Assembly: GCF_019218265.1 (NCBI RefSeq)
Contig: NZ_JAHUZE010000001.1
Span: 310,001 to 374,000, forward strand
DNA length: 64,000 nucleotides
Reading direction: 5' to 3'
Source: Maritimibacter dapengensis
GTDB lineage: Bacteria; Pseudomonadota; Alphaproteobacteria; Rhodobacterales; Rhodobacteraceae
Below are positions 25,668-42,446 of the stretch, piece after piece. The notes below the pieces were generated by a model, which was not told the DNA's origin, ran no database searches, and saw only the letters and a program-made list of their open reading frames with translations. Position 1 is the stretch's first letter, and the number at the start of each line of letters is the position of its first letter. Made by a program: the position numbers and the translations under genes.

Positions 25668-25681
25668 GGCATTATAATGCC
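25668..25681. promoter_or_regulatory. BoxR-type operator overlapping a TATAAT box, TRAP operon
   Basis: The 14-mer GGCA-TTATAA-TGCC is the core of a perfect 16-bp palindrome (25667-25682) and fits the element TGCA-YTATAR-TGCA found at the box promoters. Its centre contains an exact TATAAT (25673-25678), so a bound protein would block the promoter. It lies 28 bases before the dctP start. Confidence 0.6.
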
Positions 25682-25709
25682 AAATCCAAAGGTCAAGGGA
25701 GGAGAATCA

Positions 25710-26765
25710 ATGACCAAATCCGTTATCAAGGGCCTCGTTGCCGGCGTCGCTCTTTCGGCGCTTACCGCTGGTGCGGGCTTCGCACAGGAAGTCACCATCA
25801 AGATGCACCAGTTCCTGCCGGCGCAGGCGAACGTTCCGAAAGACGTGCTCGAAGTCTGGGCAGACAATGTCGAAAAGGCTTCCGAGGGCCGCATCAAGGT
25901 CGAACGCTATCACGCGATGGCGCTGGGCGGCACGCCGCCGGAGCTCATGGACCAGGCTATCGACGGCATTGCCGACGTCGTCTGGACCGTTGTGGGCTAC
26001 ACGCCGGGCCGCTACCCGACGACCGAGGTGTTCGAGCTTCCGTTCATGGTGTCGGACGCCCGCGAAGCCTCCTGCGCCTACTGGAAGATGTTCGATGAGC
26101 ACATGAAGGACGGTGAGTTCGCAGACCTCAAGATCATCGGAACTTGGGTGCACGGACCCGGCATGTTCCACACCGCCGAGCCGGTCGAAACGCCTGAAGA
26201 CCTTCAGGGCATGAAAATCCGCGGCGGTTCGCGTCTCGTGAACGATCTTCTGACCCGCGTCGGCGCCGAGCCGATCGGCATGCCGGTTCCGGCCGTGGCC
26301 GAGGGTCTGTCCAAGGGCGTGATCGACGGCACCACCATTCCGTGGGAAGTGACCTACGCTCTGAAAGTGCCGGAACTCGTGACCAACCACACCGAATTCG
26401 AAGGTCCGGCGCTCTACAACCTCACCTTCGTGCTCGCCATGAACAAAGAGAAATACGAGAGCCTCTCGGATGAGAACAAGGCGGCGATCGACGCCAACGC
26501 CGGTCTCGAATTCTCGGTCTTCGCCGGTGGAACGCAGGCCGACGCCGATGGCCCGGCCCGCCAGGTCGCCGTCGATCTCGGCAACAACATCATCACCGTG
26601 TCGGAAGAGGACGCGAAAGCGGCCTGGGATCCGATCGTGAACCCGATGTATTCGGAATGGGCCGCGGGCATGGAGAACGGTGACGCGCTTATCGAGGAAG
26701 CCAAATCGCTCATGCAGCAGTGCGGCGCCGACATGGCCAACATCGACACCTACGGCAAGATGTAA
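25710..26765 (+). CDS. TRAP transporter substrate-binding protein (DctP family)
   Basis: The ATG after gggaggagaatca is chosen (351 residues). A Sec signal ends near residue 24 (AGFAQ). The mature protein shows DctP features: an initial strand TIKMHQFLPAQAN, VERYHAMALGG, LPFMVSDAREASC, and the ligand-Arg region LQGMKIRGGSR near residue 170. It would capture an organic acid in the periplasm and deliver it to DctQM. The neighbouring CoA ligases for aromatic acids and the BoxR-type site in its promoter suggest an aromatic carboxylate such as a hydroxycinnamate or benzoate; that is inference. Confidence 0.92.
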   Translation: MTKSVIKGLVAGVALSALTAGAGFAQEVTIKMHQFLPAQANVPKDVLEVWADNVEKASEGRIKVERYHAMALGGTPPELMDQAIDGIADVVWTVVGYTPGRYPTTEVFELPFMVSDAREASCAYWKMFDEHMKDGEFADLKIIGTWVHGPGMFHTAEPVETPEDLQGMKIRGGSRLVNDLLTRVGAEPIGMPVPAVAEGLSKGVIDGTTIPWEVTYALKVPELVTNHTEFEGPALYNLTFVLAMNKEKYESLSDENKAAIDANAGLEFSVFAGGTQADADGPARQVAVDLGNNIITVSEEDAKAAWDPIVNPMYSEWAAGMENGDALIEEAKSLMQQCGADMANIDTYGKM

Positions 26766-26774
26766 TTGCCAATT

Positions 26775-26800
26775 GCGCGGCGGGGTGGACCTCGCCGCGC
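26775..26800 (+). terminator. Hairpin between dctP and dctQ (attenuator or mRNA protector)
   Basis: An 8-bp perfect stem (gcgcggcg / cgccgcgc, 10-base loop) lies 10 bases after dctP and is followed by atgatttt. Such hairpins commonly stabilise the abundant binding-protein transcript and reduce read-through to the membrane subunits. The second TRAP operon has a similar one. Confidence 0.55.
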
Positions 26801-26833
26801 ATGATTTTCTGATCGAACGACCAGAGTGTTTTC

Positions 26834-27343
26834 ATGAACCGCTATATCCTGGGCTTGTCCAAAGGGCTGGCAATCGTCGGCGGCTTTGTTCTGAGCCTTC
26901 TCATCCTCATCGTCGTCGTCTCGATCATCGGTCGTGAAACCGGGCTTGGCGCGGTCACGGGCGATTACGAACTGGTCGAGGCCGGCATGGCCTTCGCCGT
27001 GTTCGCCTTCCTGCCCTATGCGCACATGACAGGGGCACATGCGACCGTCGACATCTTCACAGATTGGCTGGGCGATAAGAGCTACCGCTGGTTGACGGCG
27101 GTGATCGACGTCGTTTTCGCGGTCGCCCTCGTCATCATCGCGATCCAGCTGTTCGACGGGATGCTCTCGAAACAACGCTCCGGACAGACCACGCTCCTTC
27201 TGCAATTTCCCGTCTGGTGGGCCTACGCCCTGTCCAGCTTCGCCGCCGTGATCGGTGCATTCGTCGGGATCTGGCACGCGTTGGTGCGGATTTACGAAGC
27301 CGTCACCGGCACGAAGATCGCCGTCGAGGGGGGCGGAGAATGA
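26834..27343 (+). CDS. TRAP transporter small membrane subunit (DctQ family)
   Basis: The 169-residue protein has four hydrophobic segments at about 12-32, 48-66, 88-110 and 130-150, the DctQ topology. The conserved GREtGLGAVTGDYELVEAGMAFAVF-type region is present (seen as FVLSLLILIVVVSIIGRE then ELVEAGMAF). It forms a complex with DctM at the inner membrane. It follows the hairpin and overlaps dctM by ATGA. Confidence 0.9.
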   Translation: MNRYILGLSKGLAIVGGFVLSLLILIVVVSIIGRETGLGAVTGDYELVEAGMAFAVFAFLPYAHMTGAHATVDIFTDWLGDKSYRWLTAVIDVVFAVALVIIAIQLFDGMLSKQRSGQTTLLLQFPVWWAYALSSFAAVIGAFVGIWHALVRIYEAVTGTKIAVEGGGE

Positions 27344-28836
27344 CACCTATCGAAATCGGCCTGTGGTCCTTCCCGGCACTTCTGCTCCTGATCTTCCTGC
27401 GCGTGCCCATCGGGCTGGCCATGTTCCTCGCGGGTTTCGTGGGGCTGGGCATCATCAATGATGGCTGGCACATCGCGCTCGCACGCCTGAAGACCGAAAC
27501 GTTCACGACGTTCTCGTCCTACTCGCTGTCCATCGTTCCGATGTTCCTTCTGATGGGTCACTTCGCGACACTCGGCGGCATGTCACAGGCACTTTTCCGG
27601 GCCGCTGAAAGCTGGATCGGACACCGCCGCGGCGGGGTCGCGATGGCGGCGATCGGTGCCTGCGCGGGCTTCGGCGCGATCTGTGGCTCGTCGCTCGCGA
27701 CCGCGGCCACGATGGGCCGCGTGGCGCTGCCGGAACTCAAGAAATACGGCTATTCCGGCGGTTTCTCGACCGCCACGCTCGCCGCCGGCGGCACTTTGGG
27801 CATCCTGATCCCGCCCTCCATCGTGCTCGTGATCTACGCGATCCTCGCCGAGCAGAACATCGCGAAGCTCTTCGCCGCAGCCGTCATCCCCGGCATCCTC
27901 GCCGCCGTCGGTTACATGGTCATGATCTCGATCTACGTGCGCCTGCATCCCGACAGCGCCGGCGTGCGCGAGCCCGTCCCGATGGGCGAGCGCTTCCGCG
28001 CCATGTTCGACGTCTGGCCGGTGCTGATCGTCTTCGGCCTCGTCGTGGGCGGCATCTATGGCGGGTTCTTCACGCCGACCGAAGGCGCCGCCGTCGGTGC
28101 GCTCGGCACTGCGGTCATCGCCTTCTTCAACGGCGGGCTGAACGTCGAGTCGCTGCTCGGCTCGTTCACCGCGACCGCCCGCTCGACCGCGATGATCTTC
28201 TTCATCGTGCTCGGCGCGGCCTTCTACAACGGCTTCCTCGCCGTGACGCAGGTGCCGCAGACCATGGCGACATGGGTCGGTGAACAGGGCTTCTCGCCCT
28301 ACACCGTGCTGCTCATCATCCTGGTGTTCTACCTCCTTCTGGGCTGTCTCATGGACTCGCTGTCGATGATCCTGCTTACCATCCCGATCTTCTTCCCGAT
28401 CATTTCGGTGCTCGATTTCGGCATGGTCGATTTCGTCACCATGCAGCACGACATGATCCGTGACGCCATCGCATCCGGCGCCGCCGAAGGTGTGGCGCAG
28501 GACGTGATGGACCAGATCAACGCCTTGATGGCGGCGGGGCAGGAAGTGCCGCGACAGCTGTCCGGCGAACTGGGCGTCCGTCTGACCGAATTGCGCGCCA
28601 ACGCGATCGGCATGGAATACACCGCGATCTGGTTCGGCATCCTCGTGCTGATCGTTGTGGAAACCGGCCTCATCACGCCGCCGGTGGGCATGATCCTCTT
28701 CATCATCAACGCGATGGACCGGCAAACCCCGATTGTCGAAACCTACAAGGCCGTGGCCTATTTCATCACCTCGGACCTGATCCGCGTGCTGCTCTTGGCG
28801 GCCTTCCCGGCCATTACCCTGTTCCTCGTCTACTAG
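27340..28836 (+). CDS. TRAP transporter large permease (DctM family) with a 65-residue insertion
   Basis: The ATG overlapping dctQ is chosen (498 residues). The Na+-driven permease core is clear: PIGLAMFLAGFVGLG, SLSIVPMFLLMGHFA, GFGAICGSSLATAATMG, GTLGILIPPSIVLVIYA, GGFFTPTEGAAVGA, SLSMILLTIPIFFPI and ETGLITPPVGM. DctM is usually about 430 residues. The excess is a hydrophilic, helical insertion at about residues 363-428, between TIPIFFPIISVL and TAIWFGILVL. The second DctM in this window lacks it. The insertion contains HDMIRDAIASGAAEG and LSGELGVRLTELRAN and would sit in a loop. Confidence 0.9.
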   Translation: MTPIEIGLWSFPALLLLIFLRVPIGLAMFLAGFVGLGIINDGWHIALARLKTETFTTFSSYSLSIVPMFLLMGHFATLGGMSQALFRAAESWIGHRRGGVAMAAIGACAGFGAICGSSLATAATMGRVALPELKKYGYSGGFSTATLAAGGTLGILIPPSIVLVIYAILAEQNIAKLFAAAVIPGILAAVGYMVMISIYVRLHPDSAGVREPVPMGERFRAMFDVWPVLIVFGLVVGGIYGGFFTPTEGAAVGALGTAVIAFFNGGLNVESLLGSFTATARSTAMIFFIVLGAAFYNGFLAVTQVPQTMATWVGEQGFSPYTVLLIILVFYLLLGCLMDSLSMILLTIPIFFPIISVLDFGMVDFVTMQHDMIRDAIASGAAEGVAQDVMDQINALMAAGQEVPRQLSGELGVRLTELRANAIGMEYTAIWFGILVLIVVETGLITPPVGMILFIINAMDRQTPIVETYKAVAYFITSDLIRVLLLAAFPAITLFLVY

Positions 28837-28908: not shown

Positions 28909-29676
28909 ATGGCCGACATCATAAAGGTCGAAACCGCCGAAAACGGCGTGACCACCGTGACCATGAACCGCCCCGGCAAACGCAACGCCATGAGCGACGA
29001 ACTGCTCCATGCGCTCGACGGTTTTTTCCGCGCGCCTCCCGAGGGCACCAAGGTCATCGTCCTGACCGGGACCGAGGGGCATTATTGCTCCGGCCTCGAT
29101 CTTGCCGAGCACAAACAGCGTGACGCCGAAGGCACCATGCGCCACTCGCGTGGCTGGCATGAGATCATGGATCGCATCCAGTATGGCGGCATCCCGGTCG
29201 TGTCGGCCATGTTCGGCGCGGTGATCGGCGGCGGGCTGGAACTCGCCACCTCGACCCATGTGCGCATCGCGGAACCCTCCACGATCTTCCAGCTTCCCGA
29301 AGGCAAGCGCGGCATTTTCGTCGGCGGCGGCGCCACCGTCCGCGTAGGTCGGATCATCGGCGCAGACCGGATGGTGGAAATGATGCTGACGGGTCGCAAA
29401 TACGGCGCGGACGAAGGTCTCGCGCTCGGCCTCGCGCATTACTCGGTGGGCGAAGGCGAGGCCCTCCCGCTGGCTCAGGAACTGGCGGCCAAGATCGCGA
29501 CCAACGCGCCGTTGTCGAACTACATCATGATCCAGGGCATCTCCCGGATCGAGGACATGGCCAAGGCCGACGGCCTGTTCACGGAATCGCTCTGTGCCGC
29601 GCTCACGCAGACTTCGCCCCATGCGGTCGAGGGCCTTCAGGCGTTCCTGCAAAAGCGCGACCCCAAGTTCGGCTGA
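28909..29676 (+). CDS. Enoyl-CoA hydratase/isomerase-family protein (hydroxycinnamoyl-CoA hydratase candidate)
   Basis: The 255-residue crotonase-fold protein has NRPGKRNAMSDEL at the CoA site, oxyanion-hole segments HYCSGLDLAEH and FGAVIGGGLELA, and FQLPEGKRGIFVGGGATVRV. The Glu of EGKRGIF is a plausible catalytic residue. Beside a feruloyl-CoA-synthase-like ligase and an acyl-CoA dehydrogenase, it could hydrate cinnamoyl-type CoA thioesters, either for retro-aldol cleavage or for beta-oxidation. aggag precedes the ATG. The stop overlaps the MarR start by one base. The substrate is inferred from neighbours. Confidence 0.85.
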   Translation: MADIIKVETAENGVTTVTMNRPGKRNAMSDELLHALDGFFRAPPEGTKVIVLTGTEGHYCSGLDLAEHKQRDAEGTMRHSRGWHEIMDRIQYGGIPVVSAMFGAVIGGGLELATSTHVRIAEPSTIFQLPEGKRGIFVGGGATVRVGRIIGADRMVEMMLTGRKYGADEGLALGLAHYSVGEGEALPLAQELAAKIATNAPLSNYIMIQGISRIEDMAKADGLFTESLCAALTQTSPHAVEGLQAFLQKRDPKFG

Positions 29677-30158
29677 TGGCGCTTTCGACGCGCATAAAAG
29701 GGTCCCCGACGGCCCCGCGCATCTCGGACGAGGCGCTAAGGCCCTTTGTCGGCTATTCGATCAAGCGCGCGATGAACGTGATCCGCGCCGACCTGCGCGA
29801 TGTGCTCGACCCGATGGACCTGCGCATGATTACCTTCTCGGCGCTGACCCTGATCGGTGACAACCCGGCGCTCAGCCAGGCACAACTCGCCGCCGCGTTG
29901 TCGGTCGAACGCCCCAACCTCGTCGCCGTAATCGACGAACTCTACGGACGCGGCCTGATCTCGCGCGAAAAGGTGCCGACCGACCGTCGAACTTACGCGC
30001 TCCGGCTCACCACGCAAGGCGCACGCCTTCTGGCGCGCGCGACCGAGGCCGTGCAGGCGCACGAAGACAAGCTGCTCGAAGGTCTCGACCCCGATGACCT
30101 CGCGACCCTGCGCAGGGTTCTCGCAGACATAGAACGCAATGGGACAGAGAGGAGCTGA
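29676..30158 (+). CDS. MarR-family transcriptional regulator (CouR-like by context)
   Basis: The 160-residue protein has the MarR layout: N-terminal helix, then LSQAQLAAALSVERPNLVAVIDEL (helix-turn-helix, about 65-90), the wing SREKVPTDRRTYALRLT and a C-terminal dimer helix. The DRR motif in the wing is typical. Its start overlaps the hydratase stop. In Rhodopseudomonas, CouR of this family represses a p-coumarate operon and is released by p-coumaroyl-CoA. An equivalent role here follows from gene order only. Confidence 0.88.
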   Translation: MALSTRIKGSPTAPRISDEALRPFVGYSIKRAMNVIRADLRDVLDPMDLRMITFSALTLIGDNPALSQAQLAAALSVERPNLVAVIDELYGRGLISREKVPTDRRTYALRLTTQGARLLARATEAVQAHEDKLLEGLDPDDLATLRRVLADIERNGTERS

Positions 30159-30162
30159 CCTG

Positions 30163-31971
30163 ATGCCGACATACCGCCCCCATGAAACCAGGCTCGACAA
30201 ACGGGACGACGGCGCGCTGATCTATCGCGCGGCCTATGATCTCGACCATGTCGCGGAGCGCACCGGCGACTGGCTTCACCACTGGGCCGAAGCCGCCCCG
30301 GACCGCACGTTCCTCGCCGAGCGTTACGGCGCAGGCTGGCGCGAAGTCACTTATGCCGAGGCGCTCGAACAGGTCCGCGCCATCGCGGGCGGTCTGCTCG
30401 CGCGCGGGTTCGATACCTCGACCCCGGTGCTCGTGATGTCCGGCAATTGCGTGGATCATGGGCTTCTCGCGCTCGCCGGGCAATATGTCGGTGTCCCGGT
30501 CGTCCCGGTGGCGGAACAATACGCGCTGATCCACGGCGCTCACGGTCGCCTGCGCCACGCGGTCGAGATGACGAAGCCGCGCATGGCATATGCGGTCGAC
30601 GCGGGCCAGTATGCCGAGGCCATCGCGCTCAACATCTTCGACGACATCGAAGTGGTCGCTTCCAATCCGGCAGGCAATGCCAAGGTCACGCCCTTCGCCG
30701 ACCTGCTAGCGGCCGACACTTCCGGCGTCGATGCCGCCTTCGCCGCGACCGGACCGGACACGGTGGGCAAGATCCTCCTGACCTCCGGCTCCACCTCGGC
30801 GCCCAAAGGCGTGCCGACCACCAATCGCATGATGTGCACCAACCAGGCGCAACTCGGGGCCGCCCTCCCGTTCCTGAAGGAACGCCCGCCCGTGCTTGTG
30901 GACTGGCTCCCGTGGAACCACGTCTTCGGCGGCTCGCACAATTTCAACATGGTGCTCGCCAATGGTGGCACGCTTTATGTAGACGATGGCAAGCCGACCC
31001 CCGCGCTCATCTCGCGGACGGTCGAAAACCTCACCATGGTCTCGCCTACGATCAGCTTCAACGTGCCGGTCGGCTTCGCCGGTCTGGTGAAGGCGATGGA
31101 AACCGACGACGCGCTGCGCAAAAGCTACTTCGCGGATCTCGACATGATCTTCTACGCGGGGGCCTCGCTCCCGCAGGACGTCTGGGAAGGGATCGAGCGC
31201 GCGGCGCGCAAGGAAGGCGGCGAGCCGCCCCTCATGAACTCCTCATGGGGCCTGACCGAAACCGCGCCCGCCGCACTTCTCCAGCACGAACTCACCGACC
31301 GCTCGGGCATCGTCGGTGTCCCGCTTGCCGGCGTTGAGGTCAAACTCCTGCCCGATGAGGACATGCGCTGCGAGGTCCGCGTCAAAGGTCCGTCGATCTT
31401 CGCGGGCTACCTCGACAACCCCGAGAAGACCGCCGAAGCCTTCGACGATGAGGGGTTCTTCCTCACCGGCGATGCGATGAAATTCGTCGATGACGACAAC
31501 CCGGACATGGGCCTCAAATTCGATGGCCGCATCTCCGAAGACTTCAAGCTCCTGACCGGCACATGGGTCCGCGCCGCCCAGCTTCGCCTCGACATGCTCG
31601 CACATCTCGGCCCGCTCGTCTCCGACCTCGTCGTGACCGGCGCGGACCGGAACGAGATCGGCGTCATGATCTTCCCGAACGTCGCGGAACTCGAAAAAGA
31701 AGGCTATGCCACCGACAGCGAGCGCGGTGCGCTGACCGACAAGGCGCTCAAATTCGACATCGCGCGCCGTCTCGCCACCCGGCTCGCCGAAGTCTCCGGC
31801 TCATCCTCCCGCGTGACCCGCGCGCTGATCCTGGCGGAACCGCCCTCGATGGGCGACGGCGAGATGACCGCCAAGGGCAACCTGAATTACCGCAAGATTC
31901 TCGACCGCCGCAAAACGCTGCTCGAGCGGCTCTATGACGACGCGGACCCGGCAACCATCAAGGCAAGCTGA
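30163..31971 (+). CDS. Acyl-CoA synthetase of the feruloyl-CoA synthase type
   Basis: The ATG after gagaggagctgacctg is chosen (602 residues). The ANL-family adenylation motifs are LLTSGSTSAPKGVP near residue 205, SSWGLTETAPAALL near 365 and TGDAMKFVDDDNP. The hinge/A8-type region GRISEDFKLLTGTWV is the variant typical of feruloyl-CoA synthases. It would convert ferulate, coumarate, caffeate or phenylpropanoates to the CoA thioester with ATP. The catalytic Lys region near the C-terminus reads MTAKGNLNYRK. It overlaps the flanking frames closely (stop 1 base before the dehydrogenase start), so it is in the operon. Confidence 0.87.
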   Translation: MPTYRPHETRLDKRDDGALIYRAAYDLDHVAERTGDWLHHWAEAAPDRTFLAERYGAGWREVTYAEALEQVRAIAGGLLARGFDTSTPVLVMSGNCVDHGLLALAGQYVGVPVVPVAEQYALIHGAHGRLRHAVEMTKPRMAYAVDAGQYAEAIALNIFDDIEVVASNPAGNAKVTPFADLLAADTSGVDAAFAATGPDTVGKILLTSGSTSAPKGVPTTNRMMCTNQAQLGAALPFLKERPPVLVDWLPWNHVFGGSHNFNMVLANGGTLYVDDGKPTPALISRTVENLTMVSPTISFNVPVGFAGLVKAMETDDALRKSYFADLDMIFYAGASLPQDVWEGIERAARKEGGEPPLMNSSWGLTETAPAALLQHELTDRSGIVGVPLAGVEVKLLPDEDMRCEVRVKGPSIFAGYLDNPEKTAEAFDDEGFFLTGDAMKFVDDDNPDMGLKFDGRISEDFKLLTGTWVRAAQLRLDMLAHLGPLVSDLVVTGADRNEIGVMIFPNVAELEKEGYATDSERGALTDKALKFDIARRLATRLAEVSGSSSRVTRALILAEPPSMGDGEMTAKGNLNYRKILDRRKTLLERLYDDADPATIKAS

Positions 31972-31972: not shown

Positions 31973-33565
31973 ATGAAACCCTTCAAGGCCCCGCTCGACG
32001 ACATCTACTTCATCCTGAACCACGTGGTCGGGGCCGACCGGGTGGAGGGGTTCGACCCTGACTTTTCCCGAGAGATCACCGAGCATTTCGCGGGTTTTGC
32101 CGAAGGCGTCATCGCGCCGACCGACGAAATCGGCGACCGCATCGGAGCGAAGCTCGTCGATGGCCGGGTGAAAATGCCCGACGAATTCCACAACATGTTT
32201 CAGGCCTATGTCGAACAGGGCTGGCCGGGCCTGATGCTGCCCGAGAAATACGGTGGTCAAGGGGTCGATGGCGTCACCGGCGGTGTCGTCCATGAAATCC
32301 TGATGGGCGCGAACCACGCGTTCCAGATGCTCGTCTCGCTGGCCGTGGGTCAGAACCGCGTGTTCGAGCATTTCGGCACCGAGGCGCAACGCGCGAAATA
32401 CGTGCCGCGTCTGGTCGAGGGCAAGCTTCTGGGCACCATGGCGCTCACCGAACCGGGGGCCGGATCGGACCTTGGCCGCATCCGCACCCGCGCGGTGCAG
32501 GACGGCGACCTCTACCGTATCACCGGCGAAAAGATCTTCATCTCCGGTGGCGATCAGGATCTCTCCGAAGGTGTGTTGCACCTCGTCCTCGCCCGCACTG
32601 GTGAGATGGATTCCGGCGTGCGGGGCCTGTCGCTCTTCGCCTGCCTCTCCAACCTCGACGACGGCACGCGCAACGCGGTCAAGGTGACGCGGATCGAGGA
32701 AAAGATGGGGCTCCACGCCCAGCCGACCTGCCAACTCGCCTTCGACGGGGCCGAGGCCGAACTGATCGGCGAGGAAGGGCAGGGGCTCAAGGCGATGTTC
32801 GAACTGATGAACCACGCCCGCGTGGACGTCGCGCTCCAGGGCGTGGCGCATTCCTCCCGCGCGTGGGACATCGCCACCGACTACGCTCGCGAACGCGTGC
32901 AGGGTCGCAATGCCGACGGCCCCGTGACCATCGACCAGCACGGCGACGTACGCCGGATGCTGGATGAGATCGACTCGGTCGCCATGGGCGCCCGTGCGAT
33001 GACCCACCTCACGCTCGTCACGCTGGAAACCGGCGAAGACCCGTGGCTGGTCGAGCTGCTGACTCATCTCATCAAATGGTATGCGACCGAGATGGGTCTG
33101 CGCGCGGTCGAGACTGGCATGCAGGTGCTGGGCGGCTACGGGTTCCTCTCGGAATACCGCGTCGAACAGACCTACCGCGACCTGCGCATCGCCGCGATCT
33201 ACGAGGGAACCTCGGGCATCCACGCCATGGGCGTCGCTGCCCGGCTTCTACGTCTGGAGAACGGGGCCGCGATGGACGCCTTCGTGCGTTTCGTCAAATC
33301 CGTCGAAGGGGGCGAACGGCTGTCGGCGTCGCTCGCCACGTGGGAAAAGGCCCGCGCGCATCTGGAAACCGGGGCCGATCCCGGCCCCATCGCCACGCCC
33401 TTCATCCGCCTGACCGCCCGCGTGCTGGAACAGGCACTCTGGGCGCGCATGGCGGCGGCGGCCGACAACCACCCGGACCCCGAACGCATTCGCCGGGTCG
33501 CCGCTCTCGTCACCCGGCAAGCGGCGCGGGTCGATGCCGACCTCGCCGAAATCCTCGCGGCCTGA
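31973..33565 (+). CDS. Acyl-CoA dehydrogenase
   Basis: The ATG immediately after the ligase stop is chosen (530 residues). It has ACAD motifs MALTEPGAGSDLGRI (flavin/substrate contact), a GEKIFISGGDQ strand, FELMNHARVDVALQG, and MQVLGGYGFLSEYRVEQTYRD near residue 382. The catalytic base Glu is likely in YEGTSGIHAM. The length exceeds classic 380-residue ACADs and fits the FadE-like/AidB-like long group. It would introduce a double bond in an aryl-propionyl-CoA or longer acyl-CoA. Together with the ligase and hydratase it suggests side-chain beta-oxidation of phenylpropanoids. Confidence 0.88.
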   Translation: MKPFKAPLDDIYFILNHVVGADRVEGFDPDFSREITEHFAGFAEGVIAPTDEIGDRIGAKLVDGRVKMPDEFHNMFQAYVEQGWPGLMLPEKYGGQGVDGVTGGVVHEILMGANHAFQMLVSLAVGQNRVFEHFGTEAQRAKYVPRLVEGKLLGTMALTEPGAGSDLGRIRTRAVQDGDLYRITGEKIFISGGDQDLSEGVLHLVLARTGEMDSGVRGLSLFACLSNLDDGTRNAVKVTRIEEKMGLHAQPTCQLAFDGAEAELIGEEGQGLKAMFELMNHARVDVALQGVAHSSRAWDIATDYARERVQGRNADGPVTIDQHGDVRRMLDEIDSVAMGARAMTHLTLVTLETGEDPWLVELLTHLIKWYATEMGLRAVETGMQVLGGYGFLSEYRVEQTYRDLRIAAIYEGTSGIHAMGVAARLLRLENGAAMDAFVRFVKSVEGGERLSASLATWEKARAHLETGADPGPIATPFIRLTARVLEQALWARMAAAADNHPDPERIRRVAALVTRQAARVDADLAEILAA

Positions 33566-33670: not shown

Positions 33671-33713
33671 TGGACGCTTCACGGCCCGGCATCGGTTAAC
33701 GCGACCGAACTTA

Positions 33714-33727
33714 TGCAAAAAAGTGCA
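33714..33727. promoter_or_regulatory. BoxR-type operator, upstream copy, box operon
   Basis: TGCA-AAAAAG-TGCA has both half sites with the six-base spacing shared by the other copies, but not the usual YTATAR centre. It lies 51 bases, about five helical turns, upstream of the copy overlapping the -10. Confidence 0.5.
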
Positions 33728-33744
33728 ATATCGCCTGCGACAAC

Positions 33745-33774: not shown

Positions 33775-33778
33775 AGCA
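33765..33778. promoter_or_regulatory. BoxR-type operator overlapping the -10, box operon
   Basis: TGCA-TTATAT-AGCA fits the shared consensus at all but one arm base and covers the predicted -10. It lies 31 bases before the DUF4863 start. Confidence 0.6.
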
Positions 33779-35872: not shown

Positions 35873-36678
35873 TGCTCTGGGGTGAAGGCCATCTGTCGGC
35901 GGGCGGCAAGTCGCTCGAATACAAGACGTACGGTGAGAAATCCGACGGTCCGGTGATCGTCATGCTGCACGAAGGCCTGGGGTCGGTCTCGCTCTGGCGC
36001 GACGTGCCGGACCGGATCGCCAAGGCCACCGGCCTCCCGGTGTTCGCCTATTCCCGCGCCGGCTACGGACAGTCCGATCTCGCCGATCTGCCGCGCCCGC
36101 TCGACTACATGACCCGCGAGGCCGTCGACGTGCTGCCCGAGGTGCTCGATCAGGTCGGGGCCTCGCATTACATCCTTCTGGGCCATTCCGACGGCGCGAC
36201 CATCGCCGCAGAATATGCCGGTCGGGTGTCGGACATGCGTGTTCGTGGCATCATCCTCATCGCCCCGCATTTCTTCACCGAAGAGATGGGGCTGGCCGAG
36301 ATTGCCAAGGCGCGCGAGGCATATGAGGCGACCGATCTGAAGGACAAGATGGCCCGCCATCACCGCGACCCGGACAACACCTTCCGGGGCTGGAACGAAA
36401 GCTGGCTCGCACCGGGCTTCAAGGATTGGAACGTGGCCGAAGTCATCGACTACTGGCGCATCCCCTGCCTTGCGATACAGGGGGGTGACGACCAATACGG
36501 CACGCTCGCACAGATCGAGGAAATCGAAACCCGGACCTATTCTCCCGCCGACATCGCCGTGATCGACGGCGCCCGCCATGCCCCGCATCTCGAAGCGCCG
36601 GAGGAGACGCTCGCCGCGATTGCGGACTTCTGCGACCACCTTGAGACCATGGAAGCGGCGGAGCCGGAAGGCGTATGA
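35872..36678 (+). CDS. Alpha/beta hydrolase of the box operon
   Basis: I chose the ATG overlapping the ligase stop, six bases after gagggg, over a GTG two codons earlier (268 residues). The fold is clear: MLHEGLGSVSLWRDVP oxyanion region, nucleophile elbow LLGHSDGATIAA, acid near QGGDDQYGT and His in GARHAPHLEAPE. It could hydrolyse a thioester or ring-opening product, or rescue stalled CoA esters. Similar hydrolases accompany box genes elsewhere. Its substrate is unknown. It overlaps the DUF309 gene by ATGA. Confidence 0.85.
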   Translation: MLWGEGHLSAGGKSLEYKTYGEKSDGPVIVMLHEGLGSVSLWRDVPDRIAKATGLPVFAYSRAGYGQSDLADLPRPLDYMTREAVDVLPEVLDQVGASHYILLGHSDGATIAAEYAGRVSDMRVRGIILIAPHFFTEEMGLAEIAKAREAYEATDLKDKMARHHRDPDNTFRGWNESWLAPGFKDWNVAEVIDYWRIPCLAIQGGDDQYGTLAQIEEIETRTYSPADIAVIDGARHAPHLEAPEETLAAIADFCDHLETMEAAEPEGV

Positions 36679-37034
36679 CACGCCCGCCGCATATCCCGGG
36701 CCAGAACGCCCGTCCGCCCGAGGGGTCGATCCCTGCCGGCGTGGACGAGGGCAAGCGTCAGTTCGCGGCGGGCTATTACTGGGAGGCGCATGAGGCGTGG
36801 GAACCCGTCTGGATGGGCTTGCCCGACGCCAGTTCTGAGCGCGCGCTGGTGCAGGCGATGATCCAGATCGCCAACGCTCGTCTGAAACTGGTCATGGGCC
36901 GCGACAAGGCGGCGCGCCGGATCGCGGACATCGCGCAGGTTCACCTGGACGAAGCGCGCGGAGCGGATGGTGCGGACTGGGCCGGGCGCGAGATGGAATC
37001 ACTGCGCGCCGACCTGAAATCAGATGTGCATTAA
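36675..37034 (+). CDS. DUF309-family protein
   Basis: The 119-residue protein carries the DUF309 signature YYWEAHEAWEPVWMG near residue 34 and the helical ALVQAMIQIANARLKL. The His and two Glu of the signature could bind metal. The family has no established reaction. Its position in the box operon is consistent with a role in aromatic-CoA metabolism, though DUF309 genes occur in many contexts. The last codons overlap a TGCA-type regulatory element. Confidence 0.8.
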   Translation: MTRPPHIPGQNARPPEGSIPAGVDEGKRQFAAGYYWEAHEAWEPVWMGLPDASSERALVQAMIQIANARLKLVMGRDKAARRIADIAQVHLDEARGADGADWAGREMESLRADLKSDVH

Positions 37035-37040
37035 AATGCA
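37027..37040. promoter_or_regulatory. BoxR-type operator at the end of the DUF309 gene
   Basis: TGCA-TTAAAA-TGCA has two perfect half sites with exact palindromic arms tgcatt / aatgca. It covers the DUF309 stop codon and is 76 bases upstream of the next copy. Confidence 0.55.
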
Positions 37041-37102
37041 TAAACACACAGCAACTTGCGCCCTTTGACCGTAAGTTGCTGAAATAAATAGAAACTTTAG
37101 TT

Positions 37103-37116
37103 AGCACTATAGTGCA
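37103..37116. promoter_or_regulatory. BoxR-type operator upstream of the boxC -35
   Basis: AGCA-CTATAG-TGCA contains the perfect palindrome gcactatagtgc and matches the consensus except for one arm base. It lies 9 bases upstream of the predicted -35 and exactly 40 bases before the next copy. Confidence 0.65.
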
Positions 37117-37124
37117 CGTTTGGG

Positions 37125-37153
37125 TTTACCTGAGGACCGTAACGCACTATATT
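37125..37153 (+). promoter_or_regulatory. Predicted promoter of boxC
   Basis: TTTACC (37125-37130) and TATATT (37148-37153) are separated by 17 bases, a good sigma-70-type pair. Operators lie on both sides, the downstream one covering the -10. This gives boxCBA its own promoter inside the box cluster. Confidence 0.6.
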
Positions 37154-37156
37154 GCT
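37143..37156. promoter_or_regulatory. BoxR-type operator overlapping the boxC -10
   Basis: CGCA-CTATAT-TGCT fits the shared 14-bp element with two changed arm bases. It overlaps the predicted -10 and lies 27 bases before the boxC start. Confidence 0.6.
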
Positions 37157-37183
37157 CTTAACGCGAACAAGGAGACCGGGCTT

Positions 37184-38842
37184 ATGAGCAAGGTGATCGA
37201 CTTTCAAACCGACCCGTCCAAGTACCATCACTGGAAGGTGGAATACGATGGCCCCGTGGCCACCGTTTACATGGACGTGGATGAAAACGCGGGCCTGTTC
37301 GACGGCTACAAGCTCAAGCTGAATTCCTACGATCTCGGCGTCGATATCGAGCTGGCTGATGTTGTGCAGCGGATGCGGTTCGAGCACCCCGAAGTGAAAA
37401 CCGTGGTGATGAAATCGGCCAAGGATCAGGTGTTCTGCGCTGGCGCGAACATCCGCATGCTGGGCGGTGCGGCCCACAGCCACAAGGTCAACTTCTGCAA
37501 GTTCACCAATGAGACGCGCAATACCTTCGAGGCGGCCGAGGCCGACAGCGGGCAGAAGTGGATCGCTGCCGTGAAGGGGGCCTGTGCCGGGGGTGGATAC
37601 GAGCTCGCTCTCGCCTGCAACCACATCATGCTGACCGACGACTCGACCTCCTCGGTCGCGCTGCCGGAAGTGCCGCTTCTGGCTGTGCTGCCGGGCACCG
37701 GGGGTCTCACCCGCGTCACCGACAAGCGCAAGGTGCGCCGCGACCGCGCCGACATCTTCTGCTCGATCGAAGAGGGCATCAAGGGCAAGCGCGCGAAGGA
37801 TTGGCGGCTCGTGGACGAGGTCATCCCGAACTCGAAATTCGAGGAAACGGTGACCGAACGCGCCCGCGAATTCGCTGCCAATTCCACCAAGACGGACGTC
37901 GAAAAGGGTATAGAGCTGACCCCGCTTAACCGCACCATCGACGACAAGGGCGTTCATTACGACCTCGTCGAAGTCGAAATCGACCGTGAGGGCCGCAAGG
38001 CGACCATCACCTTGTCCGGCCCGGAAGCCGACGCGCCGGGCTCGACCGACGAGCTTCTTGCGCAGGGGGCCGAGGGCTACATGCTCAAGCTTGCCCGCGA
38101 GCTGGACGACGCGATCCTGCATCTGCGGCTGAACGAGATGGAAACCGGCCTGTGGGTGTTCCGCACCCAGGGCGATCCCGAAGCTGTCACGGCGCATGAG
38201 AACATGCTGCTCGAGAACGATGACTTCTGGCTCGCAGGCGAAATCCTCCAGTACTGGAAGCGTGTCCTGAAGCGGATCGACGTAACTTCCCGCTCGCTCG
38301 CAGCACTTGTCGAGCACGGGTCCTGCTACGCCGGTGTGCTCGCGGAAATCCTTTTTGCCGTGGACCGCACCTACATGATGGAGGACGAGTTCGAGGGCGA
38401 CAATCGCCCCACCGCCACCGTCACGTTGTCGGAGTCCAACTTCGGGCGCTACCCGATGGGCAACGACCTCAGCCGGCTGGAAACCCGGTTCCTCGGTGAG
38501 CCGGAAAGCCTCACCGCCGCGAAAGAAAACATCGGTGAAGCGCTCGAGGCGGAAGAGGCCGACGAGCTGGGCCTCGTCACCATGATCCTCGACGACATCG
38601 ACTGGGACGACGAGATCCGCATCTTCATGGAAGAGCGCGCCTCGTACAGCCCGGACGCGATGACCGGGATGGAAGCCAACCTGCGCTTCGCCGGACCCGA
38701 GACGATGGAAACCCGCATCTTCGGTCGCCTGACCGCCTGGCAGAACTGGATCTTCAACCGCCCGAACGCGGTCGGTGAGAACGGGGCGCTCCAGCGCTAC
38801 GGCACCGGCGTGCGCGGCGAATACAACATGGAACGCGTGTAA
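37184..38842 (+). CDS. boxC: 2,3-epoxybenzoyl-CoA dihydrolase BoxC
   Basis: The ATG after aaggagaccggg is chosen (552 residues, normal for BoxC). BoxC opens the epoxide ring of 2,3-epoxybenzoyl-CoA to 3,4-dehydroadipyl-CoA semialdehyde and formate. It is a fused crotonase protein. The first half has FCAGANIRMLGGAAHSHKV and KGACAGGGYELALACNHI with VALPEVPLLAVLPGTGGLTR. The second half has HGSCYAGVLAEILFAVDRTYM. Glu residues for catalysis lie in these oxyanion-hole regions. It has its own promoter and three upstream operators. Confidence 0.95.
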   Translation: MSKVIDFQTDPSKYHHWKVEYDGPVATVYMDVDENAGLFDGYKLKLNSYDLGVDIELADVVQRMRFEHPEVKTVVMKSAKDQVFCAGANIRMLGGAAHSHKVNFCKFTNETRNTFEAAEADSGQKWIAAVKGACAGGGYELALACNHIMLTDDSTSSVALPEVPLLAVLPGTGGLTRVTDKRKVRRDRADIFCSIEEGIKGKRAKDWRLVDEVIPNSKFEETVTERAREFAANSTKTDVEKGIELTPLNRTIDDKGVHYDLVEVEIDREGRKATITLSGPEADAPGSTDELLAQGAEGYMLKLARELDDAILHLRLNEMETGLWVFRTQGDPEAVTAHENMLLENDDFWLAGEILQYWKRVLKRIDVTSRSLAALVEHGSCYAGVLAEILFAVDRTYMMEDEFEGDNRPTATVTLSESNFGRYPMGNDLSRLETRFLGEPESLTAAKENIGEALEAEEADELGLVTMILDDIDWDDEIRIFMEERASYSPDAMTGMEANLRFAGPETMETRIFGRLTAWQNWIFNRPNAVGENGALQRYGTGVRGEYNMERV

Positions 38843-38858
38843 GCGCGAAAGTCTGGAA

Positions 38859-38880
38859 GGGTGGGCTATCGTGCCCACCC
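38859..38880 (+). other. Hairpin between boxC and boxB
   Basis: An 8-bp perfect stem gggtgggc / gcccaccc with a 6-base loop lies 17 bases after boxC. No T-run follows, so it is more likely an mRNA processing or stability element than a terminator. Confidence 0.55.
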
Positions 38881-38902
38881 CAACCTTTAGGGAGAACGAC
38901 AC

Positions 38903-40354
38903 ATGGTCGACGTGATCAATGTCAGCTACGACACCCAGATTCCGAACAACGTAGGGCTGTCCTCGGACCGTAAGGTTCTGAAGGCACTTGAAAAATGGCA
39001 CCCCGGTTACATCAACTGGTGGAACGACCTGATCCCCGAGAAATTCCAGAAAAGCATGGTCTACCTGCGCACGGCCGTCTCGGTGGATCCCAAGGGCTGG
39101 GCCAAATTCGATTACGTGAAAATGCCCGAATACCGCTGGGGCGTTCTGCTCGCTCCGCAGGTCGAGGATCGGACGATTCCCTGTGGCGAACATTTCGGTG
39201 ATCCGGCCTGGCAGGAAGTGCCGGGCGAGTACCGCAACCTCCTCAAGCGCCTGATCGTCATTCAGGGTGACACCGAGCCGGGGTCGGTCGAACAGCAGCG
39301 GTTCCTGGGCCTCACGGCTCCGTCGCTCTACGACATGCGCAACCTGTTCCAGGTGAACGTGGAAGAAGGCCGTCACCTCTGGGCGATGGTGTACCTGCTT
39401 CAGAAGTATTTCGGACGCGACGGGCGCGAAGAGGCCAACGATCTGCTGGTCCGCTCCTCCGGCTCGGAAGAAGCGCCGCGTATGCTGGGTGCGTTCAACG
39501 AAGAGACGCCAGACTGGCTCTCGTTCTTCATGTTCACCTACTTCACCGACCGTGATGGCAAGATGCAGCTGGAATCGCTGGCGCAGTCGGGCTTCGACCC
39601 GCTGAGCCGCACCTGCCGCTTCATGCTGACCGAAGAAGCTCACCACATGTTCGTGGGCGAAACCGGCGTGGGCCGCACGATCGAGAAGACCTGTCAGGTG
39701 ATGCGCGAGAACGGCATCGACGACCCCTACGACACCGACAAGATCCGCTCGCTCGGCGTCATCGACCTTCCGACGATCCAGAAGAAGCTGAACCTGCACT
39801 ACACCCTGTCGCTCGACCTGTTCGGGCAAGAGGTGTCGACCAACGCCGCCAACGCGTTCAACGCAGGGATCAAAGGCCGCTTCCACGAGCATCGGATCGA
39901 CGACGACCACATGCTCAAGAACGACACCTACGTCGTGTGGGATTTCGAGGACGGCAAGGCGGTGCAGAAAGAGGTGCCCGCCCTGACCGCGATCAACATG
40001 CGGCTGCGTGACGATTACATCAAGGACGCCGCCGGTGGTGTGGGCCGCTGGAACAAGATCATCGAGAAAGCCGGGATCGAGTTCGAGATGAAGCTTCCGC
40101 ATGAAAGCTTCAACCGCAAGATCGGCGTCTTCTCGGGGCATAACTTCAACCCGGACGGCGAGATGGTGTCTGGCGCGGAGTATGACGCGGGCCTGCCGAA
40201 CTGGCTCCCGACCCATGCCGACGGCGACTTCATCCAGTCGCTGATGGTCCCGGTGACCGAGCCGGGCAAATACGCATCCTGGATCGCCCCGCCGAAAGTC
40301 GGTATCGACAACAAGCCGGGCGACTTCGAATACGTCAAACTGCACATGGCGTAA
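38903..40354 (+). CDS. boxB: Benzoyl-CoA 2,3-epoxidase oxygenase component BoxB
   Basis: The 483-residue protein is the di-iron oxygenase that turns benzoyl-CoA plus O2 into 2,3-epoxybenzoyl-CoA, with electrons from BoxA. Candidate iron ligands are visible: Glu in QVNVEEGRHLWAM (E-x2-H), and Glu in MLTEEAHHMFVGETG (E-E-x-H-H). The second lies about 95 residues after the first, the usual four-helix-bundle arrangement. Length is normal. It follows boxC by 60 bases with an agggag site, and is followed by a strong hairpin and a small Cys-rich gene. Confidence 0.95.
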   Translation: MVDVINVSYDTQIPNNVGLSSDRKVLKALEKWHPGYINWWNDLIPEKFQKSMVYLRTAVSVDPKGWAKFDYVKMPEYRWGVLLAPQVEDRTIPCGEHFGDPAWQEVPGEYRNLLKRLIVIQGDTEPGSVEQQRFLGLTAPSLYDMRNLFQVNVEEGRHLWAMVYLLQKYFGRDGREEANDLLVRSSGSEEAPRMLGAFNEETPDWLSFFMFTYFTDRDGKMQLESLAQSGFDPLSRTCRFMLTEEAHHMFVGETGVGRTIEKTCQVMRENGIDDPYDTDKIRSLGVIDLPTIQKKLNLHYTLSLDLFGQEVSTNAANAFNAGIKGRFHEHRIDDDHMLKNDTYVVWDFEDGKAVQKEVPALTAINMRLRDDYIKDAAGGVGRWNKIIEKAGIEFEMKLPHESFNRKIGVFSGHNFNPDGEMVSGAEYDAGLPNWLPTHADGDFIQSLMVPVTEPGKYASWIAPPKVGIDNKPGDFEYVKLHMA

Positions 40355-40367
40355 GCCGGACGCAAAT

Positions 40368-40392
40368 CCGGGGGCGGTGCGCCCGCCCCCGG
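40368..40392 (+). other. Strong hairpin between boxB and the small Cys-rich gene
   Basis: A perfect 10-bp G+C stem (ccgggggcgg / ccgcccccgg, 5-base loop) lies 13 bases after boxB with no T-run. It probably stabilises boxB mRNA or tunes expression of downstream genes. Confidence 0.65.
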
Positions 40393-40417
40393 AGACGACC
40401 CCAAGGGAGGCCACACA

Positions 40418-40582
40418 ATGCATATCGACCGAACCGCCGGACCTACGACCCGCGCACGCGACCTCGCACAGCAGGTTTCAGGGTTGAGGCAAGGCTGCCT
40501 TGGCTGCGATGATTGCAAGGGCCGCTGTCACGAACTGGTCGAGGCCATGCTGGTCCCCGACATCGTGTTGAAGGGCAAATAG
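40418..40582 (+). CDS. Small four-cysteine protein between boxB and boxA (54 residues)
   Basis: An ATG preceded by aagggagg starts a 54-residue frame that is easily missed by size cut-offs. The first 25 residues are basic/helical (TRARDLAQQVSGLRQG). The core is GCLGCDDCKGRCHEL: Cys27, 30, 33 and 37 with spacing C-x2-C-x2-C-x3-C. The tail is hydrophobic (VEAMLVPDIVLKG). This spacing is that of one [4Fe-4S] ferredoxin motif, without the usual following Pro; a zinc knuckle is the alternative. Lying between the oxygenase and its reductase, it may help electron transfer or di-iron assembly of BoxB. Confidence 0.75.
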   Translation: MHIDRTAGPTTRARDLAQQVSGLRQGCLGCDDCKGRCHELVEAMLVPDIVLKGK

Positions 40583-40672
40583 GTCGCGGAGAGGTCCCGG
40601 ATCACGTCCGGGACGCGACCCTCGGCCCGCGCGTCAGCCATCCCGAAAACCCGCCCCGGGCCTGACCCGGGG
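40583..40672. repeat. REP-like double palindrome upstream of boxA
   Basis: Two hairpins: gtcccgga / tccgggac (40594-40614), flanked by further pairing arms gtcgcg / cgcgac, and ccccggg / cccgggg with loop cctga (40654-40672). It resembles the element translated inside livF. It sits between the small four-Cys gene and boxA and may limit read-through or mRNA decay. Confidence 0.6.
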
Positions 40673-40694
40673 CCTCGTTTCCAACGGTAGCCAC

Positions 40695-41885
40695 ATGAAC
40701 AAGCCGCTCAAACAGCACCTCATCGACCCGGAAATCTGTATCCGCTGCTACACCTGCGAGATGACCTGTCCGATCGAGGCGATCACCCATAACGACGACA
40801 ACGTCGTGGTGGATGCCGAGAAGTGCAATTTCTGCATGGATTGCATTCCTGTCTGCCCGACCGGGTCCATCGACGAATGGCGCGTGGTGAACGAGCCCTA
40901 TTCGCTCGAAGAGCAGTTCGAGTGGATGGAGCTTCCCGAGCAGGAGGAGATCGAGGCGGGCGGCGATGGTGACGATGGCGAGGCGCTCGACGCTGCCATG
41001 GCGGCGCTTCTGGCCGAAGCGCACAGCGGGGCAGGGGGCAAATCCATCGCGCCGAAATCCGCCTCCAAGGCGACCGTGAACCTTTACAACCTTGGCAAGC
41101 CGGTGACCGCGACCGTTCAGGGTAACTATCGCCTGACCGCAGAGGATTCCGACGCCGACGTGCGTCACATCATCCTGGACTTCGGCGCGGCCCCCATGCC
41201 TGCGCTCGAAGGCCAGTCCATCGGGATCATTCCACCGGGTGAAGATGCCGAAGGCAAGCCGCACCTGCCGCGTCTCTACTCGGTCTCCTCGCCCCGCGAC
41301 GGCGAGCGCCCCGGCTATAACAACATGTCGCTCACTGTGAAGCGCGAAGAGCACGGGGTGGCGTCGAACTATGTCTGCGATCTGAAGAAGGGCGATGAAG
41401 TGAAGGTCACTGGGCCGTTCGGTTCGACCTTCCTCCTTCCGTCCGATCCGGACGCGGAGCTTCTGATGATCTGCACCGGCACCGGCTCGGCCCCGTTCCG
41501 TGGTTTCACAATGCGCCGCCAGCGCGAGATGCCGACCAACAAGGGCAAGCTCACGCTCGTCTTCGGCGCGCGCAAACAGGGCGAGTTGCCGTATTTCGGG
41601 CCGCTGAAGAAAGTGCCGGACGCGTACATGCACAAGGTCTTCGCCTTCTCCCGGCTCGAAGATCAGCCCAAGCAGTATGTGCAGGACAAACTGCGCGACG
41701 AGAAAGAGCGCGTGGCGAAGCTTCTGACCTCCGACAAGGCCTATATCTACATCTGCGGCAAGAAAGAGATGGAGCACGGGGTCGAAGAGGCGCTGGCAGA
41801 CATTGCGCGAGGCGAGGGGCTGGAATGGAAAGCCATCCGTGACGCGATGCGCGAAGATGGTCGTTACCACGTCGAAACCTACTGA
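40695..41885 (+). CDS. boxA: Benzoyl-CoA 2,3-epoxidase reductase component BoxA
   Basis: The 396-residue protein passes electrons from NADPH to BoxB. The N-terminus holds two [4Fe-4S] motifs, CIRCYTCEMTCPIEAI and CNFCMDCIPVCPTG. A linker (about 70-125) rich in Glu and Ala follows. The rest is a ferredoxin-NADP reductase module: FAD site PRLYSVSSP near residue 193, NAD(P) site MICTGTGSAPFRGF near 258 and YICGKKEMEHGVEEAL. The tail VETY resembles FNR ends. No strong ribosome site precedes the ATG, which lies just after the palindromic repeat. Confidence 0.95.
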   Translation: MNKPLKQHLIDPEICIRCYTCEMTCPIEAITHNDDNVVVDAEKCNFCMDCIPVCPTGSIDEWRVVNEPYSLEEQFEWMELPEQEEIEAGGDGDDGEALDAAMAALLAEAHSGAGGKSIAPKSASKATVNLYNLGKPVTATVQGNYRLTAEDSDADVRHIILDFGAAPMPALEGQSIGIIPPGEDAEGKPHLPRLYSVSSPRDGERPGYNNMSLTVKREEHGVASNYVCDLKKGDEVKVTGPFGSTFLLPSDPDAELLMICTGTGSAPFRGFTMRRQREMPTNKGKLTLVFGARKQGELPYFGPLKKVPDAYMHKVFAFSRLEDQPKQYVQDKLRDEKERVAKLLTSDKAYIYICGKKEMEHGVEEALADIARGEGLEWKAIRDAMREDGRYHVETY

Positions 41886-41953
41886 GGCGCGGCGGTTCCG
41901 TTGAAAGAACCCGACCGGACAACCTCGACAAAAACGGCGAGCCAGAAAGCGGA

Positions 41954-42370
41954 ATGACCCAGCCATTCACCCACGAAATCCTCGTAAGCTGGGGCGATTG
42001 CGACCCGGCGCAGATCGTCTACACGGGGCGTATCCCGAATTTCTGTCTCGACGCGATCAATGCGTTCATGGATGCGGAAATGGGCGGCGGCTGGTTCATT
42101 CAGGAGTTGGACCACAACATGGGGATGCCCTTCGTCAAGATGGACATCGACTTTCGCGCGCCCGTCACACCGCGACATCGACTGGCGTGCACCGTTCGGG
42201 TCGAGCGGTTGGGCACAAAGTCCGTCACCTTCCGGGTCGAGGGGCATCAGGACGGCAAGCTCTGCTTCGAAGGCAGCTTCACCGAAGTTTTCACCATCGC
42301 CGACCAGTTCAAATCGCAGGAGATTCCGGGTCACGCTCGCGAAGTGTTGGAAAAACACCTCATCGCCTGA
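41954..42370 (+). CDS. 4-hydroxybenzoyl-CoA-type thioesterase (hotdog fold)
   Basis: The 138-residue protein has the 4HBT active-site motif VSWGDCDPAQIVYTGR (Asp near residue 18) and a hotdog helix NFCLDAINAFMD. It would cleave benzoyl-CoA or an intermediate to free CoA, a safety valve when CoA esters pile up. It follows boxA by 68 bases and precedes boxR, and the two operators of the boxR promoter begin 10 bases after it. Substrate is inferred from context. Confidence 0.85.
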   Translation: MTQPFTHEILVSWGDCDPAQIVYTGRIPNFCLDAINAFMDAEMGGGWFIQELDHNMGMPFVKMDIDFRAPVTPRHRLACTVRVERLGTKSVTFRVEGHQDGKLCFEGSFTEVFTIADQFKSQEIPGHAREVLEKHLIA

Positions 42371-42379
42371 CCGGAAATA

Positions 42380-42393
42380 TGCACTATATCCCG
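42380..42393. promoter_or_regulatory. BoxR-type operator upstream of the boxR -35
   Basis: TGCA-CTATAT-CCCG has one perfect arm and the conserved centre; the other arm is degraded. It lies 8 bases before the predicted -35. Confidence 0.5.
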
Positions 42394-42400
42394 AATCTCT

Positions 42401-42429
42401 TTGAAAGGTGGGGCCAAACCGCCTAGGAT
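42401..42429 (+). promoter_or_regulatory. Predicted promoter of boxR
   Basis: TTGAAA (42401-42406) and TAGGAT (42424-42429) are separated by 17 bases. Operators flank it on both sides, the downstream one near the expected start of transcription, which suggests autoregulation. Confidence 0.55.
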
Positions 42430-42432
42430 TTG

Positions 42433-42446
42433 TGCATTATAGAACA
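42433..42446. promoter_or_regulatory. BoxR-type operator at the boxR transcription start
   Basis: TGCA-TTATAG-AACA keeps one perfect arm and the exact centre. It lies 12 bases before the boxR start codon and 53 bases after the upstream copy. Confidence 0.55.

Follow-up and report, generated by a model that had tools for sequence, protein, structure and literature searches.

Predicted BoxR-type operators at a TRAP uptake operon point to joint control with the box genes in Maritimibacter dapengensis

Introduction

Here we analyse a 64,000-nucleotide stretch of the Maritimibacter dapengensis genome (the window; contig NZ_JAHUZE010000001.1, positions 310,001 to 374,000 of the forward strand; coordinates below count from its first letter), in which an uptake operon is followed by a box gene cluster and by the gene of its putative repressor, boxR. 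From position 25710 the genes run in the following order: dctP, dctQ and dctM of a tripartite ATP-independent periplasmic (TRAP) transporter, a crotonase, a MarR regulator, an acyl-coenzyme A (CoA) synthetase here labelled fcs, and an acyl-CoA dehydrogenase; then a PnbB-fold gene, a benzoate-CoA ligase and a hydrolase; then boxC, boxB, boxA and a thioesterase-like gene; and finally boxR (Table 1). The encoded BoxR fits the BoxR/BzdR family, with an XRE-type helix-turn-helix fused to a shikimate-kinase-like domain and a gene that adjoins boxABC and bclA. Both BoxR and BzdR act as repressors (PMC6449761); benzoyl-CoA is the effector to which BzdR responds (PMC4985591). An earlier note on this DNA had proposed that one palindromic element, repeated at eight positions, places the TRAP operon in the BoxR regulon together with the box genes, and had named TGCA-type repeats as the target of these repressors. 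The latter is already published: the betaproteobacterial BoxR/BzdR motif is ATGCACTATAGTGCAT, and its sites are almost always multiple and mainly 3-5 helical turns apart (PMC6449761, Suvorova and Gelfand 2019).

Results

A symmetric BoxR-type matrix of 16 base pairs (bp) was trained on 152 sites from 85 boxC and boxR promoter regions of other genomes, with the window excluded and 13 of 110 loci dropped as second copies of the same genomes or as own-genome sequence. Its consensus is nTGCAhTATAdTGCAn. At 12 bits or more it marks seven positions in the window, whereas 30 dinucleotide-shuffled versions of the window average 0.5 such positions and never exceed 2; the same seven are chosen by a matrix retrained on fewer genomes, and all of them sit 5′ of dctP, the PnbB-fold gene, boxC or boxR. 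The pattern TGCAYTATARTGCA is matched with 1-3 mismatches at seven of the eight coordinates listed in the earlier note, where 1.70 are expected by chance and none of 100 shuffles reaches 7. A shared element stands at seven positions, while the eighth, 42380, is a half-site in which the left half TGCACTATA stands alone and is followed by TCCCG. The element is also looser than had been described: none of the listed sites matches TGCAYTATARTGCA perfectly, both TGCA half-sites are intact only at 33714 and 37027, and the dctP site at 25668 reads GGCATTATAATGCC, a perfect palindrome with half-sites GGCA and TGCC. The claimed spacing of 40-53 bases between paired sites holds for the intervals of 51, 40 and 53, but 37027 and 37103 lie 76 apart. 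Core-only counts are uninformative, because the bare TGCA-N6-TGCA, one mismatch allowed, is no commoner in the window than expected (10 found, 19.5 expected) and a relaxed core pattern has 3 matches in the whole genome, equal to the 3 in a reversed control. At least two sites of 9 bits occur in all 42 of 42 boxC regions, on part of which the matrix was trained. By their sequence, the sites at the box promoters are ordinary predicted BoxR-type operators, and their motif, repetition and helical spacing are already known.

The seven sites lie in promoter regions, as had been claimed, and the PnbB-fold gene and boxC each have a single promoter-like match whose second hexamer falls within the sites at 33765 and 37143, respectively. 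The perfect TATAAT described for the dctP site is present at 25673-25678, but a promoter scan gives it no -35 partner; the only match of that scan in the dctP region is at 25427-25455. Divergence from the three relatives nearest to the window (L001, L002 and L111) has left only islands of the dctP promoter intact, namely part of an element at 25548, GTGGAAA, TGGCAATATATGKCA at 25637, GTGGCAWTATAATGCCA at 25666 and the ribosome-binding region. The weak site at 25637 and the strong one at 25667 are 30 bp apart, and across the 109 dctP promoters of the survey below successive sites are most commonly separated by 19 bp (13 cases) or 29-31 bp (16 cases). A sigma-54 promoter has a GG-GC spacing of 10; such a reading of 25668 was rejected, since by eye its GG-GC gap is 9 bases.

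We surveyed 394 genomes of the family, which gave a dctP homologue in 106 and a BoxR match in 84. Keeping the first of each tandem reduced the 124 dctP matches from genomes other than the window's own to 109 loci, and the 300 bp 5′ of each dctP were scored, a site being any match of at least 9 bits. Sites were present at 31 of 45 loci with boxR within 25 kilobases (kb), at 12 of 26 in a boxR-elsewhere class (farther away or on a different contig) and at 3 of 38 with boxR undetected (Fisher p=4.4e-8). The last two classes depend on assembly, and the absence of BoxR is judged in part from draft genomes. The trend across the three classes keeps its direction at 11, 13 and 15 bits. When retraining is confined to 66 regions from other genomes, the counts become 31/45, 12/26 and 4/38 over all loci, and 17/28, 6/13 and 2/23 in genomes outside the training set (p=1.6e-4). 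As background, a site precedes 5 of 435 starts among ten other genes of the cluster and occurs in 96 of 2180 dinucleotide-shuffled dctP promoters, so that the boxR-undetected loci lie close to it. The earlier note had named poor conservation in related genomes as a refutation of its proposal; the opposite is seen, with sites at 43 of 71 dctP loci with boxR versus 3 of 38 without.

In several positives of the boxR-elsewhere class (L161, L162, L165, L169, L173 and L176) dctP has box genes next to it, or the locus runs into the end of its contig, boxR being found on a separate contig. At three other loci (L159 in G073, L160 in G009 and L174 in G368) dctP lies far from boxR on long contigs and sites are present; no dctQM homologue was recognised beside dctP in L160 and L174. 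The boxR-undetected loci with a site are L195 (genome 77% complete), L199 (bclA beside dctP) and L200 (fcs). The site also varies with gene order. If a cou-type set is defined as marR, or as ech plus fcs, a site precedes dctP in BoxR-bearing genomes at 24 of 28 loci that lack the set but have box or fcs genes nearby, at 14 of 28 with the set and at 5 of 15 with neither; among loci linked to boxR (within 25 kb) it is present at 19 of 24 without cou-type genes and absent at 9 of 21 with them. Mapped onto a tree of 110 DctP proteins, the state of the site switches at least 23 times. Across independent pairs that differ in BoxR linkage, the site follows in 5.9 of 10 and does the reverse in 0.2 (median p 0.03); across pairs that differ in BoxR presence, it follows in 6.7 of 9 and does the reverse in 0.6 (median p 0.07).

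At four loci (L129, L130, L137 and L123) dctPQM leads directly into bclA, without ech, marR or fcs between, and BoxR-type pairs about 29 bp apart lie 5′ of dctP, an order that hints at benzoate itself as a possible substrate of this TRAP family.

The dctP promoter also holds a separate element at 25548-25565, overlooked by the earlier note. The motif that revealed it was derived solely from marR-type operon promoters classed as unlinked to box; this motif is an inverted repeat distinct from that of BoxR and typified by TAATnGTTATGnnTCATA. No shuffled window of 30 reaches the score of the element, the best giving 14.1 bits. With the motif retrained on 25 loci of the training genomes the element still ranks first in the window, at 15.0 bits, and the runner-up, elsewhere, has 12.6; in genomes outside training, the retrained motif is found 5′ of dctP at 7 of 16 loci with cou-type genes versus 0 of 48 without. 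Held-out scoring and dinucleotide shuffles served as controls, and reversed-sequence controls were set aside for the MarR and BoxR motifs alike, because a reversed palindrome keeps its shape. For the MarR protein, the best of 39 matched sequences is 6c28, which is named CouR, and the operon's own CouR-like protein probably binds 25548-25565. At the 14 linked loci without a BoxR-type site near dctP, the MarR-type motif occurs instead in seven with cou-type genes and in one without. Both elements, in separate places as in the window, are found at five of the 109 loci, where the BoxR-type site is nearer the start codon in four and farther in L114.

A possible further member of the regulon lies on another contig of the same genome (G000:C3, L223 1929-1963), where a BoxR-type pair of 20.5 and 11.0 bits, 19 bp apart, stands 160-195 bp 5′ of a thiolase gene. 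In G248, of the same genus, the thiolase has a pair of 19.6 and 12.8 bits at equal spacing (L231 1306-1340), and in G080 a 64% identical thiolase lies between fcs and boxB. The gene is a candidate distant member of the BoxR regulon but only a lead, because sites precede it in 2 of the 8 genomes that have it (the window's own and G248) and the remaining six show no site 5′ of the gene.

Among the other genes of the window, DctP matches 7nr2/7nra with 577 bits, entries named only as a DctP subunit, which we take to be the Sagittula stellata TarP studied with aromatic ligands. Judged by the CoA ligase, the nearest named relatives of this genome are Maritimibacter metagenome-assembled genomes (83% and 76% identity). 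A histone-deacetylase-family protein (PF00850) is encoded head-on to boxR on the minus strand at 43385-44329, followed at 44397-47078, again on the minus strand and adjoining the box cluster, by a gene that matches ADP-forming acyl-CoA synthetase models and has an acetyltransferase-like C-terminus. Three genes 5′ of dctP (20583-25374) resemble, by eye, a periplasmic glucan (opg/mdo) operon; an NCBIfam search of the third gave no match.

Table 1. Predicted sites and genes in the window, from the dctP promoter to boxR
Feature	Position	Strand	Details
Candidate operator of the operon's own CouR-like MarR regulator	25548..25565	+	18.5 bits; top window match to motif from marR-type operons unlinked to box
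Weak second BoxR-type site 5′ of dctP	25637..25652	+	5.5 bits; TGGCAATATATGKCA retained in three nearest relatives; 11.1 bits in same-genus L111
BoxR-type site 5′ of dctP, TATAAT central	25667..25682	+	14.6 bits (14.0 after retraining); kept in three nearest relatives
dctP, TRAP solute-binding protein	25710..26765	+	NF037995; best solved relative 7nr2, 577 bits
dctQ and dctM, TRAP membrane subunits	26834..28836	+	dctQ PF04290; dctM TIGR00786
ech, crotonase/enoyl-CoA hydratase	28909..29676	+	NF006013, 341 bits
MarR-family regulator gene	29676..30158	+	nearest solved sequence relative CouR, 6c28, E 9e-24
fcs (label used here), acyl-CoA synthetase	30163..31971	+	NF009232, 653 bits, under model cut-off 777
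acd, acyl-CoA dehydrogenase	31976..33565	+	
BoxR-type site 5′ of PnbB-fold gene/bclA operon	33713..33728	+	17.4 bits
BoxR-type site 5′ of PnbB-fold gene/bclA operon	33764..33779	+	18.6 bits; overlaps promoter-like second hexamer
PnbB-fold gene, bclA (benzoate-CoA ligase), hydrolase	33810..36678	+	PF16155; TIGR02262, 737 bits
BoxR-type site 5′ of boxC	37026..37041	+	20.0 bits
BoxR-type site 5′ of boxC	37102..37117	+	18.5 bits
BoxR-type site 5′ of boxC	37142..37157	+	16.9 bits; overlaps promoter-like second hexamer
boxC, boxB, boxA and thioesterase-like gene	37184..42370	+	TIGR03222, TIGR03225, TIGR03224; 4HBT_2
Half-site 5′ of boxR	42379..42394	+	8.2 bits, left half only
BoxR-type site 5′ of boxR	42432..42447	+	12.5 bits
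boxR, HTH + shikimate-kinase-like repressor	42458..43357	+	NF006015, 390 bits (cut-off 204); HTH_3 and SKI

Discussion

Computation shows the sites, how they go together with BoxR from genome to genome, and a distinct second motif, and from these results we consider it likely that the uptake and CoA activation of aromatic compounds, feeding the box pathway, are under the dual control of a CouR-like repressor and BoxR, the predicted sites being operators of the BoxR encoded at 42458. One switch would then probably tie aromatic uptake to breakdown. As a prediction, the earlier placing of the uptake/CoA-ligase operon in the BoxR regulon is supported by the association across genomes, with BoxR as at most one of two inputs, given the element at 25548-25565. 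In the likely circuit, a phenylpropanoid would be imported by the TarP-like TRAP system, and BoxR would repress the PnbB-fold/bclA operon, boxCBA, its own gene and the operon of the TRAP, ech, marR, CoA-ligase and acyl-CoA-dehydrogenase genes until benzoyl-CoA builds up. Upstream of dctP, BoxR would use the strong site at 25667 together with the weak one at 25637, and about 120 bp upstream the CouR-like MarR repressor would occupy its operator at 25548 and be released, probably, by a hydroxycinnamoyl-type CoA ester. The operon would in this way sense two thioesters, one from the phenylpropanoid substrate and one from the aromatic ring that it delivers. The MarR-type element lies upstream of the BoxR-type sites, an order that would let BoxR either shut off a second promoter near 25673 or halt, as a roadblock, transcription started upstream. 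Binding, repression, both effectors and benzoyl-CoA as the pathway product are steps that we infer; repression and the response to benzoyl-CoA are extended to this BoxR by analogy with its BoxR/BzdR relatives.

The palindrome at 25668 might be read as the operator of the operon's own MarR/CouR-like regulator, unrelated to BoxR: MarR proteins bind inverted repeats (PMC4737184), a marR gene lies inside the operon, and the palindrome is perfect without an intact TGCA. This reading was rejected, and we hold it to be very unlikely, on the distribution of the sites. None of the 54 regions 5′ of dctP or ech at 37 marR-type loci classed as unlinked to box has a BoxR-type site (at least 9 bits), compared with 24 of 28 dctP loci that have box or fcs genes close by but no marR-type genes, and those unlinked marR-type loci share another motif, which is separately present at 25548. 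That the palindrome is a chance setting for a -10 hexamer, with no regulator involved, would account for its TATAAT but is extremely improbable, as GTGGCAWTATAATGCCA is retained in four diverged promoters, the dctP sites recur in other genera in step with BoxR, and shuffled windows never held more than two sites of 12 bits.

BoxR binding is deduced from motif and co-occurrence, and some boxR-undetected loci carry a site, so another regulator that merely travels with BoxR might recognise the dctP sites. We judge this highly improbable: the sites were found by a matrix from boxC and boxR promoters whose consensus agrees with the published BoxR/BzdR motif, and one of the three exceptions (L195) is in the incomplete genome. 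It is also rather unlikely that BoxR binds 5′ of dctP with little effect on expression because the CouR-like protein dominates. The CouR-like element does share the promoter, and the linked loci that have cou-type genes and lack a BoxR-type site (9 of 21) imply that BoxR control is dispensable there, but the sites at 19 of 24 linked loci without cou-type genes are as expected if BoxR can be the main input.

Several observations weigh against dual control with BoxR as one of its arms. The dctP site lacks an intact TGCA, and benzoyl-CoA is a presumed product of this cluster. In fourteen of the 45 linked loci the 300 bp 5′ of dctP are free of sites, two of these loci carrying a 13-bit BoxR-type site farther out, 300-1100 bp upstream, and a site does occur at 3 of 38 boxR-undetected loci (4 of 38 with the retrained matrix), near the shuffle rate. 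With the DctP tree taken into account the association is modest and the test a weak one, with a median p of 0.03 for linkage to BoxR and of 0.07 for its mere presence, which amounts to support and not proof. The MarR motif is degenerate, its first version reaching 13 bits in 16 of 42 boxC promoters, probably through a common AT-rich centre.

On a broader proposition we are evenly divided. BoxR of the Rhodobacteraceae may be a wider regulator of aromatic uptake. Within one TRAP family, the dctP promoter would have passed repeatedly from CouR-like to BoxR control or back, and in a subset of genomes, to which the present one belongs, it would hold both as a two-thioester gate; the regulon may reach unlinked loci, such as the thiolase on the other contig, and so co-induce phenylpropanoid side-chain removal and benzoyl-CoA ring opening. 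If dual control is right, a regulator and a likely inducing signal can be assigned to a TRAP uptake system of many marine Rhodobacteraceae, the predicted BoxR regulon widens past benzoate genes and past the Betaproteobacteria, and the locus becomes a case in which the rewiring of transporter promoters between two CoA-ester sensors can be put to the test.

In the part of the open-access literature covered, we found no description of a TRAP or hydroxycinnamate operon under BoxR, and neither 'TRAP' nor 'cinnam' occurs in the text of PMC6449761. With the betaproteobacterial BoxR/BzdR regulons the present system shares the type of regulator, the palindrome and several sites per promoter, as well as box genes, bclA, a pfam16155 protein and transporters (PMC6449761). 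The betaproteobacterial transporters are ABC systems and BenK (PMC6449761), whereas here the predicted member is a TRAP/CoA-ligase operon that also carries the element of a second regulator. By its description, the tar/cou locus of Rhodopseudomonas palustris is comparable, with TarPQM, a phenylpropenoid TRAP transporter, at the coumarate-gene locus as here, and with couAB regulated by CouR, a MarR protein responding to p-coumaroyl-CoA (PMC3610893); BoxR control of that locus is not described in the parts of PMC3610893 covered, whereas BoxR-type sites occur here. CouR of Rhodococcus jostii RHA1, a MarR repressor of hydroxycinnamate genes released by p-coumaroyl-CoA, is of the same regulator type, although its box, cATTGA-N5-TCAATg, differs from the element predicted here (PMC4737184). 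The motif and its repetition at 3-5 helical turns are already known from the betaproteobacterial regulons, and the link to dctP and the TRAP operon is the new claim.

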